Of a DNA stretch of 64,000 nucleotides, positions 8,496 to 44,654 are shown piece by piece. The notes under the pieces are model-generated. The model made no database searches, was not told the DNA's origin, and was given only the letters and a program-made list of their open reading frames with translations. Source of the stretch: Rhodothermales bacterium (GTDB lineage: Bacteria; Bacteroidota; Rhodothermia; Rhodothermales; VXPQ01). The translations under genes were made by a program, and so were the position numbers. Where the stretch lies: assembly GCA_951812345.1 (NCBI GenBank), contig OX638295.1, positions 1,646,965-1,710,964 of the forward strand. Reading direction: 5' to 3'. The number at the start of each line of letters is the position of its first letter. Positions within the stretch are counted from its first letter, which is position 1.

Positions 8496-8909
8496 GATAT
8501 GTTTTATTCTTTGCTAAACAAGGAGTTACATGATTATACTCGTGTTATTATTTCAGTTATGATAGCCGAATTATCCGATCTTGCATTCTCTGCGAAAAGA
8601 GAAAAGTGGACGATGAATCGTTGCGGATGAAGACCACATGGATGTATGAAGCGGACAGGCAGCTATTCAGGAGAATGGCATGCCCTATTTTCCTTTAGGA
8701 GACTCTGATTAAGTTCGCAAAGCTCAGCGCGTCACTTCCACAACGTACCGAACCACAGTGTTTTTTGCTGGTTTCAACGATGCAATCATGAATCCTTTAC
8801 GCACGAACGTGACGCGCTGGGCGAAGCGGTTTTGATCAGAGAATCCTTGATTTTAGCAGGTTGTGCGCGACATGATCCTGTTTAGCACAATATTGACGAC
8901 ACGCATCCG
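8496..8909. other. Intergenic region with a miniature inverted-repeat element
   Basis: About 410 bp between the exchanger gene (minus) and tRNA-Leu (plus). It contains the element at 8697-8847, listed separately. The AT-rich part next to the exchanger (8500-8640) is a plausible promoter area, but no confident promoter could be assigned. No coding potential was seen. Confidence 0.6.
8697..8847 (-). mobile_element. MITE-like element, copy 1 (151 bp)
   Basis: The termini are inverted repeats: AGGAGACTCTGAT at the left and ATCAGAGAATCCT at the right. A second inverted pair lies inside: GCGCGTCAC near the left end and GTGACGCGC near the right end. Reverse-complemented, it matches the first ~115 bp of the 39857-40101 copy and then jumps to that element's other end (AGCTTTGCG followed by the TTAATCAGAG terminus). 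It is therefore an internally deleted relative in opposite orientation. There is no open frame. Confidence 0.72.
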
Positions 8910-34455: not shown

Positions 34456-34559
34456 GGATACTCTGACCAAAACCGCTTCGCCCTGCCACGCTGCTTCGTC
34501 ATTCCTTGCCAGCGCACCCCTCTCAGCCTCTGAACTTCACGGACTTAATCAGAGTATCC
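34456..34559 (+). mobile_element. MITE-like element, copy 2 (104 bp)
   Basis: It begins GGATACTCTGACCAAAACCG directly after the stop codon of DinB copy 2 and ends ACTTAATCAGAGTATCC, so the outer 11 bp are perfect inverted repeats (GGATACTCTGA/TCAGAGTATCC). The inner part (34487-34559) matches the right half of the 39857-40101 element closely, including CTGCTTCGTCATTCCTTGCC. It is absent from the corresponding place after DinB copy 1, so insertion followed the duplication. Confidence 0.8.
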
Positions 34560-39856: not shown

Positions 39857-40101
39857 GGGATACTCTGACCAAAACCGCTTCGCTCAGCGCGTCACGTTCG
39901 TGCGGATAGGACGTTATGATTCCATCTTTGAACACTGCAGATTCGGTGCGTCGCGAACGTGACGCGCCCTTCGGGAAGCTGCGAGAAGCACGCTGGCCGC
40001 GTCATTCCTCATTGTGTGGGGCCTGCCACACTGCTTCGTCATTCCTTGCCAGCCCGCCCCTCGCAAGCCTCTGAGCTTTGCGGACTTAATCAGAGTATCC
40101 C
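39857..40101 (+). mobile_element. MITE-like element, copy 3 (245 bp, longest)
   Basis: The ends are perfect inverted repeats (GGGATACTCTGA at the left, TCAGAGTATCCC at the right). Inside the left half lies an inner inverted pair around GCGCGTCACGTTCG and CGAACGTGACGCGC. The left half matches copy 1 (reverse-complemented) and the right half matches copy 2, so this is the most complete member. No open frame is present: it is non-autonomous. It fills the gap between the glycosyltransferase and the RsbW-like gene, and its last base directly precedes the ATG at 40102. Confidence 0.82.
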
Positions 40102-40524
40102 ATGCCTGACAAGCCGTTGAATCCGGATGTAATGGAACGGGTGCTCGCCAGCAACCAGGCGAGCATCGAGCGGATTGTCTCCGAAACGGAAGCCTTTCTC
40201 GAAGAGCGCGTGCGAGACGAAGACCTTGCCTATCGTATCGTACTTCTGACCGTGGAGGCCGTTACGAATGCGATCGAGCACGGAAACCGGTTCGACAGTA
40301 CGAAGCAGGTCCGTTTCCGGATGGAAGCGGTGGGCCGACGCATCGAAGTGGCTGTAGAGGACGAGGGAGAAGGATTCAACCCGACAACCTCTGCCGATCC
40401 GCTTGCGTGCGAGAATCTCCTGCAGGAGGGAGGGCGCGGTCTGCTCTTCATGCAATCCATGGCCGACGAGGTCTTGTTCGAGAACGACGGCAGGAAGGTG
40501 CGTTTGATCTTCCATGCCGGCTAA
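40102..40524 (+). CDS. RsbW-like anti-sigma factor / serine kinase (HATPase_c_2)
   Basis: 140-residue GHKL-type ATPase domain. N box TVEAVTNAIEHGN, G1 box VEDEGEGFNP, G2 region EGGRGLLFMQSMADEV are all readable. These proteins bind sigma factors or phosphorylate STAS-domain antagonists; neither partner is in the window. The start codon abuts the MITE-like element, so the ribosome-binding site and promoter must be within or across that repeat. The 3' end overlaps the next gene by 11 bp. Confidence 0.9.
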   Translation: MPDKPLNPDVMERVLASNQASIERIVSETEAFLEERVRDEDLAYRIVLLTVEAVTNAIEHGNRFDSTKQVRFRMEAVGRRIEVAVEDEGEGFNPTTSADPLACENLLQEGGRGLLFMQSMADEVLFENDGRKVRLIFHAG

Positions 40525-42577
40525 ACCCTCAGGACTCACCTGGCTCCTTCTCGCGCTGCTTGCTGCGGCTATGGGCGGCATGGCGTGGTGGGCCGCCGCA
40601 CCGGAAACCCGCGAGGGATTCGTCGTTGCAGCGCTTGCCGCCGGCGCACTCTGTGCATGGCTCTGGAAACGGGGGGATGTGCCGATGGGCCTCGTCATCG
40701 GCTTTGCGCTGATCTTGCGGCTGGCCGTATTCTGGCTGCCGCCAGGCCTTTCCGACGACGCCTACCGGTACGTATGGGACGGTCTCGTGCAGGCGGAAGG
40801 GTACAACCCCTACCTGCACACGCCCGACAGCCCGGAACTGGAGGCGCTGCGCGACGAGCCTATCTACGACGAACTCAATTCGTCCGGCGTCTACACGGTA
40901 TATCCCCCGGTATCCCAGCTCGTTTTCCGGATCGGGGCCGTTTTCTACAAACAGGGCTGGGAAGTTTCCTGGTTCGTCATCAAGGGGATTCTGGCGCTCT
41001 TCGAGTTCGGGGCAGTGCTTGTGCTGAGTCGCATGCTCCGTCCCCGGCAACTGTTGCTGTACGCCTTGAATCCGGCGGTCGTACTTGCCGGAGCCGGTCA
41101 GGGGCACGGCGAAGCGGCCATGGTCCTGTTTCTGGCGCTTGCGTTGTTCGCGCTAAAGAACAAACGGGGCGTGTGGGCTTCCGTCTGGCTGGCCTGCGCC
41201 GGGGGCGTCAAACTCTACCCGTTTCTTTTGTTTCCCTTCCTTTGGCGCCGATTCGGCTGGAAAAGCATAGCCGCCGGCCTCGGCATGGCCATCCTGCCCG
41301 CACTGCCTTTCCTGCATCCGGAGGGGATAGGGAAAATGATTTCGTCGCTGGATCTCTATGTGCGCCTTTTTGAATTCAATGCTGGTCTCTACTATAGCAT
41401 TAAGTATTTCCTGGCCCTGCTGACCGGCATGGATCTGAGCAAGCTGCTCGGCCCGGCCCTTGCTGCGCTATATCTTGCCGGACTGGCGATGCTGTACGCA
41501 CAGCGCCCCAAATCGGCCGGGACCGGCTGGAAAATATGGTCCAAATCAGCCGGAACGGGCCGGGAAACATCGCCCGAATCAGCCGGAACCGGCTGGAAAA
41601 CATGGCCCGAATCAGCTGGAACCGACTGGAAAACATGGCTAATCCGGCGATACTTCCTGCCGGAGGATGGGGACCTGCGACGCCTTTTTGTCTGGGCGGC
41701 GGGCGGTTTCCTCGTGTTCGCCACCACCGTACACCCCTGGTACCTGCTTGGCGTACTCGTGCTTGCAGCTCCGGCGGAACGGCCCTCCTGGCACTGGTAC
41801 TGGCTTTCGGTGTGCGCGCTCGGCACCTACCTGCTCTATACCGGCGGACCCTACTGGATATGGGTCTGGACAGGGTGGGGAGGATGGACCGTACTGGCCG
41901 CTTGCCGCTATCGGCGTGCCCTCACAGACCTTCTGCTGCGGGTGCGCGCTGCCCGAAAAGCGGCCCTGCTGGCGCGTTTTCTGGAGGAGAACCGGTCGGT
42001 GCTCGATGTGGGGTCCGCGGAAGGCTATGTAGGAATGGAATTGGCCAAACGCCTTGGCGCACAGGTCCAACTGATCGATATCCTCGACCGGAACAGGACC
42101 ATGCTTCCGTTGGACATATACGAAGGACGACGCCTTCCCTACGCTTCCGGCGCCTTTGACGCCTCCCTGCTGGTTTTTGTCCTGCATCACGCCGAATCTG
42201 CGGACGAACTGCTTCGTGAGACGCTCCGTGTGAGCCGCCGCGTGGTAATCCTCGAATCGACCTATGCATCGAAATGGGAGCTGGCGCTGCTTCGCAGGCT
42301 GGATCGACTGGCGAACCGTCTGCGATCAGAAGGAACTGTGCAAGAACAGGAGGGAGGCCCCCGTTTTCGGACCCACGCCGAGTGGCTGGATTTTTTCCGG
42401 AAAGCCGGCGCGCGCGTCGTCCATGCGCACCGCACCCGGCGATGCGTGGATCGTCAGTCGCTTTTTGTGGTGGAGGGGGGAGAGGGCGCAGGGTCTGTAA
42501 GCGGAGGAGGTCTCCCGAACAGGGAAAGGGTTTCGGGATCGACCGGCTGCTCTTCTTCGGCGTCCTCCGGCCGATAA
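40514..42577 (+). CDS. GT87-like polytopic mannosyltransferase fused to a SAM-dependent methyltransferase
   Basis: 687 residues in two parts. Residues 1-460 are a polytopic GT-C glycosyltransferase of the DUF2029/GT87 kind: about ten helices, the acidic loop LSDDAYRYVWDGLVQAEGYNPY (read as SDDAYRYVWDG plus NPY), and the motif GVKLYPFLLFP. Residues ~475-660 are a class I methyltransferase (SVLDVGSAEGYVGMELAKRL, then FDASLLVFVLHHAESADELL). Between helices, four 11-residue repeats (SAGTGWK type) form a loop. The last ~40 residues, low-complexity Gly/Ser, lie over the convergent tetR gene and may be a read-on after loss of a stop. A lipid-linked sugar step is likely. Confidence 0.82.
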   Translation: MPAKPSGLTWLLLALLAAAMGGMAWWAAAPETREGFVVAALAAGALCAWLWKRGDVPMGLVIGFALILRLAVFWLPPGLSDDAYRYVWDGLVQAEGYNPYLHTPDSPELEALRDEPIYDELNSSGVYTVYPPVSQLVFRIGAVFYKQGWEVSWFVIKGILALFEFGAVLVLSRMLRPRQLLLYALNPAVVLAGAGQGHGEAAMVLFLALALFALKNKRGVWASVWLACAGGVKLYPFLLFPFLWRRFGWKSIAAGLGMAILPALPFLHPEGIGKMISSLDLYVRLFEFNAGLYYSIKYFLALLTGMDLSKLLGPALAALYLAGLAMLYAQRPKSAGTGWKIWSKSAGTGRETSPESAGTGWKTWPESAGTDWKTWLIRRYFLPEDGDLRRLFVWAAGGFLVFATTVHPWYLLGVLVLAAPAERPSWHWYWLSVCALGTYLLYTGGPYWIWVWTGWGGWTVLAACRYRRALTDLLLRVRAARKAALLARFLEENRSVLDVGSAEGYVGMELAKRLGAQVQLIDILDRNRTMLPLDIYEGRRLPYASGAFDASLLVFVLHHAESADELLRETLRVSRRVVILESTYASKWELALLRRLDRLANRLRSEGTVQEQEGGPRFRTHAEWLDFFRKAGARVVHAHRTRRCVDRQSLFVVEGGEGAGSVSGGGLPNRERVSGSTGCSSSASSGR
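41510..41641 (+). repeat. 33-bp tandem repeat, four in-frame copies
   Basis: Units start at 41510, 41543, 41576 and 41609, each coding an 11-residue unit with consensus SAGTGWKTWPE. Copies 3 and 4 differ at only a few bases and copy 2 is most divergent. The array is in frame, inserting a flexible loop next to a transmembrane helix of the GT87-like protein; copy-number change would leave the frame intact. Confidence 0.9.
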
Positions 42578-43270: not shown

Positions 43271-43421
43271 GTAGACTGATAGGTCTACCTGTGGAGACAC
43301 GAAGTATACCGAGCGGTCTACCTATTGTTTCCCAAGTAGACTGATCGGTCTACCCTGATCGAATTCCTGGTATACCGATGGGTCTACCTGTCGAGGGGTC
43401 CCGGTATACAGGCCGGTATAC
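43271..43421. promoter_or_regulatory. Array of five phased TetR-type operator sites
   Basis: Five 18-bp inverted repeats, each with 6-bp arms around a 6-bp centre: GTAGACTGATAGGTCTAC (43271), GTATACCGAGCGGTCTAC (43304), GTAGACTGATCGGTCTAC (43336), GTATACCGATGGGTCTAC (43370) and GTATACAGGCCGGTATAC (43404). Start-to-start spacing is 33, 32, 34 and 34 bp, about three helical turns, so all sites face the same side. They are upstream of the tetR-type gene, which they probably autoregulate; binding is inferred. Confidence 0.78.
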
Positions 43422-43742: not shown

Positions 43743-44654
43743 TCAGAGGCTCAGTGCCTCCCGTACGGCATCCAAAAGCGCCTGCGAATCCTGGGCCGCA
43801 TCCACGAAAATCGCCTCGGAATCCCCCCTGAACCATGTTTCCTGCCGTTTGGCGTAGCGGCGCGTGTTTTGCTTGATCAAACGCACCATTTCCTCTTCCG
43901 TGATTTCGCCCTTCAGAAACGCGATGGGCTCCTGGTAGCCGATCGTGCGCAGCGGATTGAGTCCGGGATCGTATCCTGCCTCGAGGATGCCGCGTACTTC
44001 GTCCACGAGGCCCGCCGCCAGCATTTCGTCCACACGGCGTTCGATGCGGGCATAGAGTTCCTCCCGATTTCGCTGCAAAACGATGGTTCGGAACGCATAG
44101 GGAGGAGGCGCCTGGGTTTCGTGAAAGCGGCTGAGAGGGATGCCAGTCGCCTCGTATACCTCGAGGGCGCGGGCCAGGCGTTGCGTTTTGGTCGCGTCCA
44201 TGGTAGCGGCCGCGCGCGGATCGACCTGCTGCAATGCCTCATACAGCGCCTCTGGCCCTTCCTGGTCGAGACGTTTCCGGATATGTGCACGTACCGAAGG
44301 GGGGATGTCGGGAATATCTGCAAGGCCGTCCCGGAGAGCCCGTAGATACAGGGTGGAGCCGCCCGTAACGAGGGGAATCCGCCCCCGGTCGAGAATATCG
44401 GCAATGCGGTCAAGGGCTTCGGCCATAAACATACCGGCCGAAAAAGGCTCTTCGAGGGACCGCTCGTCGATGAAATGGTGCGGGATGCGCTCCAGTACAT
44501 CCCTGTCCGGCTTCGCCACCCCGATAGTAAGTTCCCGGTATACCTGCCGGCTATCCGCAGAGATGATTTCTGATTCAAGTAATACTGAAATATTTATGCT
44601 TAATTCTGTCTTACCCAATGAAGTAGGGCCAGTTATAACAGGTATAAGATTCAT
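43743..44654 (-). CDS. miaA: tRNA dimethylallyltransferase
   Basis: 303 residues. Transfers a dimethylallyl group to A37 of tRNAs that read codons starting with U. P-loop GPTSLGKTE at 9-17 (usual form GPTAVGKT), then the substrate motifs ISADSRQVYRELTIGVAKP, IPHHFID, LVTGGSTLYLRAL, and late GLNPLRTIGYQEPI and KQNTRRYAKRQETWFR, the last shared with all MiaA proteins. The tRNA-Leu(UAA) in this window, which carries A37 in its loop, is a possible client. Confidence 0.96.
   Translation of the reverse strand: MNLIPVITGPTSLGKTELSINISVLLESEIISADSRQVYRELTIGVAKPDRDVLERIPHHFIDERSLEEPFSAGMFMAEALDRIADILDRGRIPLVTGGSTLYLRALRDGLADIPDIPPSVRAHIRKRLDQEGPEALYEALQQVDPRAAATMDATKTQRLARALEVYEATGIPLSRFHETQAPPPYAFRTIVLQRNREELYARIERRVDEMLAAGLVDEVRGILEAGYDPGLNPLRTIGYQEPIAFLKGEITEEEMVRLIKQNTRRYAKRQETWFRGDSEAIFVDAAQDSQALLDAVREALSL

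Follow-up and report, generated by a model that had tools for sequence, protein, structure and literature searches.

Five palindromes stand at nearly even distances upstream of a tetR gene in this Rhodothermales genome (2.82 Mb, single contig); the array is real and conserved, and comparative sequence evidence indicates that its sites are almost certainly the operators of the adjacent TetR. We favor, with a probability of roughly 0.8, a reading in which the five operators serve the TetR encoded downstream of them, side-by-side dimers of which would repress their own gene in negative feedback, so that the array is probably autoregulatory. The sites share the 18-bp consensus GTAKACN6GTMTAC. Within the window (the whole 64-kb stretch of DNA analyzed), the pattern GTAKACNNNNNNGTMTAC finds five perfect sites and none elsewhere at 0 mismatches, and the mean count over 100 dinucleotide-preserving shuffles of the window is 0.00 at the same stringency. 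The five sites and the spacings of 33, 32, 34, and 34 bp between their starts, as given in the original prediction, match the sequence exactly (Table 1). The linkers between the 18-bp sites measure 14–16 bp and the whole array covers about 150 bp.

Table 1. Coordinates in the window of the five sites, the TetR gene, and its upstream neighbor.
Feature	Coordinates	Strand	Remarks
Operator S1, tetR-proximal	43271..43288	.	GTAGACTGATAGGTCTAC; found in 6/6 genus genomes
Operator S2	43304..43321	.	GTATACCGAGCGGTCTAC; GTAGAC..GTATAC in gene orientation, 6/6 genomes
Operator S3	43336..43353	.	GTAGACTGATCGGTCTAC
Operator S4	43370..43387	.	GTATACCGATGGGTCTAC
Operator S5, tetR-distal	43404..43421	.	GTATACAGGCCGGTATAC
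TetR-family regulator, 254 aa	42454..43218	-	PF00440; start 52 bp past proximal site S1
miaA, co-directional upstream neighbor	43743..44654	-	context only

The encoded protein carries an N-terminal helix-turn-helix domain of the TetR_N family (PF00440), recognized with a score of 58.7 bits (cut-off 24), and the tetR of the array is the one match returned by this profile in the whole genome. The Pfam Sulfatase profile, by comparison, has 28 matches in the same 2.8-Mb genome against the one of TetR_N. The AlphaFold2 monomer adopts an all-helical, two-domain TetR fold with nine main helices and a mean pLDDT of 76.7; confidence is low after about residue 204, and the C-terminal tail past this point is predicted to be probably disordered. 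The best match among solved folds is SCO4454 (PDB 3g7r), with a TM score of 0.91 by target; SAV143 (PDB 3jsj) is also matched, and QacR appears further down, including its cooperative DNA complex (PDB 1jt0).

Besides our own genome (G000), the five others from the genus (G109, G110, G111, G112, and G113) have an orthologue of tetR (E < 1e-20), which was detected in 0 of 108 other genomes of the order, and in all six genus genomes five sites lie upstream of the gene. The arms deviate from the consensus at 2 of 360 positions, in two sites of G113 with one arm mismatch each, and are 93–98% identical between pairs of genomes, while linker identity falls from 70% in the closest pairs to 37–43% in distant pairs across the genus, to be compared with 38% for random 15-mers aligned in the same way. 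The spacing has been held while the linkers drifted: all 24 intervals in the six genomes are 32–34 bp long, which bears out the regular, constrained spacing that had been proposed. Read from the distal to the proximal site, three genomes have spacings of 34, 34, 32, 33 (total 133 bp), one has 34, 33, 32, 34 (133 bp), and two have 34, 33, 33, 34 (134 bp). Linker indels have moved single sites by one base with the step preserved, in a compensating manner, and this points to selection acting on both the sites and the step between them. The alternative, common ancestry with too little time for larger indels, is less likely because the linkers are saturated.

The array is tied to tetR. A two-site pattern with 13–17 bp between the sites was found in four of 394 genomes of the phylum, all from this genus and always at tetR; this pattern needs a GTAGAC arm at its start and therefore misses some arrays (that of G110 is not among the matches). 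Within this scope, the same array unlinked to a TetR gene, which had been named as evidence against the assignment, did not occur. Outside the genus, the closest related TetR proteins share 33–41% identity and have two palindromes just upstream of their genes, perfect or near-perfect and 35–44 bp apart. Pairs resembling GTAGACAGGTCTGTCTAC are present in Caballeronia of the Burkholderiales (39 bp apart in L027, 38 bp in L029, where the second site was read by eye, and 36 bp in L030), pairs resembling TGTTACCGATCGGTAACA in Gemmatimonadota (36 bp in L023 and 35 bp in L025), and others in the Cyanobacteria Calothrix (L021, 37 bp) and Pleurocapsa (L022, 44 bp). Beyond such close relatives, a generic search for clustered palindromes in the upstream regions of 80 homologues returned mostly irregular, G+C-rich noise. 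The palindromic pairs of the relatives support the identity of the five sites as operators and, together with the conservation, the linkage to tetR, and the single TetR_N gene, uphold their proposed assignment to the adjacent TetR. Comparison with the two-site relatives further suggests that the five-site array may have grown from a two-site state.

The original prediction held that no divergent target gene remains; none is indeed present, as miaA lies on the same strand as tetR, whereas the implied loss of such a gene is unsupported. No lost divergent partner was seen in the genus genomes where the region is readable: five of them have miaA as the upstream neighbor, and G110 has an unrelated ORF there. 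We reject this possibility. Linkage of the array to miaA is likewise rejected: in G110 the array stays with tetR though another ORF stands in the place of miaA. From reading its sequence, this ORF (L020, 99–773) looks like an Eco29kI-type restriction endonuclease. On the other side, a gene for a GT87-like membrane glycosyltransferase fused to a C-terminal methyltransferase domain (40514–42577 of the window, + strand) is convergent to tetR, overlaps its 3′ end, and is kept across the genus.

Mixed arms (GTAGAC..GTATAC or GTATAC..GTCTAC) occur in 13 of the 30 sites of the six genomes, position 4 not having to match position 15, which fits half-site recognition with one half-site per subunit of a dimer. 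Read in the direction of the gene, S2 and S4 both end in a right arm GTATAC in each of the six genomes, and the TATAC within it resembles a −10 element, a resemblance that we treat as no more than a lead. A scan for sigma-70-like promoters and terminators in and near the array found none, so that overlap of the array with the tetR promoter is presumptive.

In the mechanism that we propose, TetR dimers would fill the five sites side by side, with footprints that would roughly abut, as the spacing of the sites is compatible with. Occupancy of these ~150 bp, in the presumed promoter region of tetR, would block transcription of the gene and keep the amount of TetR at a defined level, and some ligand would release the dimers and free the promoter. 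With five sites, repression would be tight and possibly steep, and about five dimers would be kept at tetR before remote single sites were served. Binding, autorepression, and the ligand are all presumptive, and direct cooperativity between dimers is speculative. Cooperative or filament-like loading is plausible by likeness to SlmA, RefZ, EthR, and QacR.

The claim that the sites recur every three helical turns on one face of the DNA survives in part. The mean step over the six genomes, 33.3 bp, corresponds to 3.17 turns at 10.5 bp/turn. Site phases have a mean resultant of 0.92–0.96 at 11.0–11.2 bp/turn but of 0.25 at 10.5 bp/turn, where the sites rotate by about 60 degrees per step round the helix. 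One-face phasing thus holds only at about 11.1 bp/turn and fails at 10.5 bp/turn, and the fractional number of turns per step at the latter value argues against a strict same-face filament. A repeat of ~11.1 bp/turn could occur in supercoiled or protein-bound DNA. It is conceivable, but in our estimation doubtful, that five dimers form a regular, spacing-constrained assembly at 11.1 bp/turn on their own promoter, with the DNA untwisted or wrapped, which would be a higher-order complex undescribed for the TetR family.

Allowing one mismatch to GTAKACYGNNCRGTMTAC, 11 sites are found in our genome, against one for a reversed control, and five of these are the array. The genome search that had been suggested for the pattern thus yields a few remote single sites, some of them within coding genes and probably due to chance. 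A site at 612294, between aroK and truA, is conserved in G109 and G112; G113 has a degraded version of it, and G110 and G111 lack it. A site at 34478, at a sulfatase/PhoD-like junction, is perfect in G109 and G113, carries one mismatch in G000 and G110, and is broken in G111. A further site (G000:C1:3122, L124) lies between a cytochrome-c/TPR gene and a divergently oriented sulfatase gene, where GTATAC half-sites recur at ~11–12-bp steps in all six genomes (L124, L125–L129); the regulator acting on these repeats could be TetR or another protein. Exact matches within gpmI and a BatD-like gene are set aside as probable chance occurrences in coding sequence. The existence of remote sites means that TetR may do more than autoregulate, and they hint weakly at a small regulon; a sulfatase regulon is not claimed, as a site is found at just two of about 28 sulfatase matches.

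A short repeat beginning CTCTGATTAAGTCCGCRAAG is present in 153 copies (≤2 mismatches) across the 2.8-Mb genome, whereas its reversed control has 0; copies in the window are at 8703–8722 on the + strand and at 34535–34554 and 40076–40095 on the − strand. The repeat is also found in intergenic regions of sister species. Some copies end in a near-inverted copy of the beginning (GGACTTAATCAGAG or similar), so that the repeat looks like a high-copy MITE or a similar non-coding element.

The same operators might instead nucleate a larger nucleoprotein structure, by spreading or wrapping, with a role in chromosome organization or division, in the manner of SlmA and RefZ, two proteins of the TetR fold for which spreading along DNA has been reported (PMC6657595). 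The status of this TetR as sole family member in the genome, its five regularly spaced sites, a weak match of the RefZ profile (NF037937) to the helix-turn-helix part only, and the half-site repeats at the remote cytochrome-c/TPR locus would suit such a role, which we nevertheless hold to be improbable. The sites of SlmA and RefZ are scattered over the chromosome and serve division, whereas those described here are clustered at the regulator's own gene and not chromosome-wide as SBS or RBM are, the remote sites being few and partly in coding genes. Nor does sequence evidence place this TetR with either protein. The 21.3 bits of the RefZ profile are far under its cut-off of 180.

Slightly less probable still is that the array acts mainly as a titration sink, which would determine how much free repressor is left for a small regulon elsewhere in the genome, made up of sulfatase, PhoD-like, and cytochrome genes. 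In its favor, near-perfect single sites occur where the sulfatase and PhoD-like genes meet in G000, G109, and G113, at the cytochrome-c/TPR–sulfatase region throughout the genus, and at aroK/truA in three genomes, but the remote sites decay between species, with parts lost in G111 and G113, and the scarcity of sites at sulfatase genes and the probable chance matches in gpmI and the BatD-like gene count against such a regulon. Autorepression is the simpler explanation for an array placed at the start of the repressor's own gene. We reject, as highly improbable, five leader hairpins or cruciforms that bind no protein, for although every unit is palindromic, foldable, and upstream of the start codon, the mixed arms break the 4–15 pair without compensation in 13 of 30 sites, core positions pair in just 16–19 of 30, and the protein's relatives have like sites in an ordinary promoter position.

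Most described TetR-family regulators use one or two operators and some use three, and QacR and EthR each bind one compound operator, whereas the array described here comprises five separate palindromes at 33 bp. The proposed array shares with these two proteins the presence of several TetR-family subunits per operator region: EthR seems to form an octamer on its operator and QacR to bind as paired dimers (PMC9736018, PMC3511530). MbdR from Azoarcus sp. CIB, also of the TetR family, resembles our system in its 18-bp palindromic operators with ATAC/GTAT ends (ATACN10GTAT) and in its autorepression, with three operators predicted at P3R, the promoter of its own gene, which it represses at high concentration; it differs in having three sites instead of five and in repressing a known catabolic cluster too (PMC4424350). 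With SCO7222 and ActR from Streptomyces, three palindromes in one intergenic region match three protein–DNA complexes, and a divergent target gene is present, unlike at the array (PMC3511530). The upstream palindromes of the relatives in Caballeronia, Gemmatimonadota, Calothrix, and Pleurocapsa are alike, with two sites in place of five. As the original prediction held, five sites are more than is usual for the family. A search of the literature, with subscription papers mostly outside its reach, returned no direct precedent for a five-operator TetR array; three-site autoregulatory clusters are already known, and five evenly spaced sites kept genus-wide were not found in the literature searched.

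With its held spacing and drifting linkers, the five-site array is a naturally occurring system for testing how the number and spacing of operators affect negative feedback, and likewise for testing contact between TetR dimers along DNA. The two-site relatives provide a ready comparison, and the single TetR_N gene in the genome makes the regulon easy to define.
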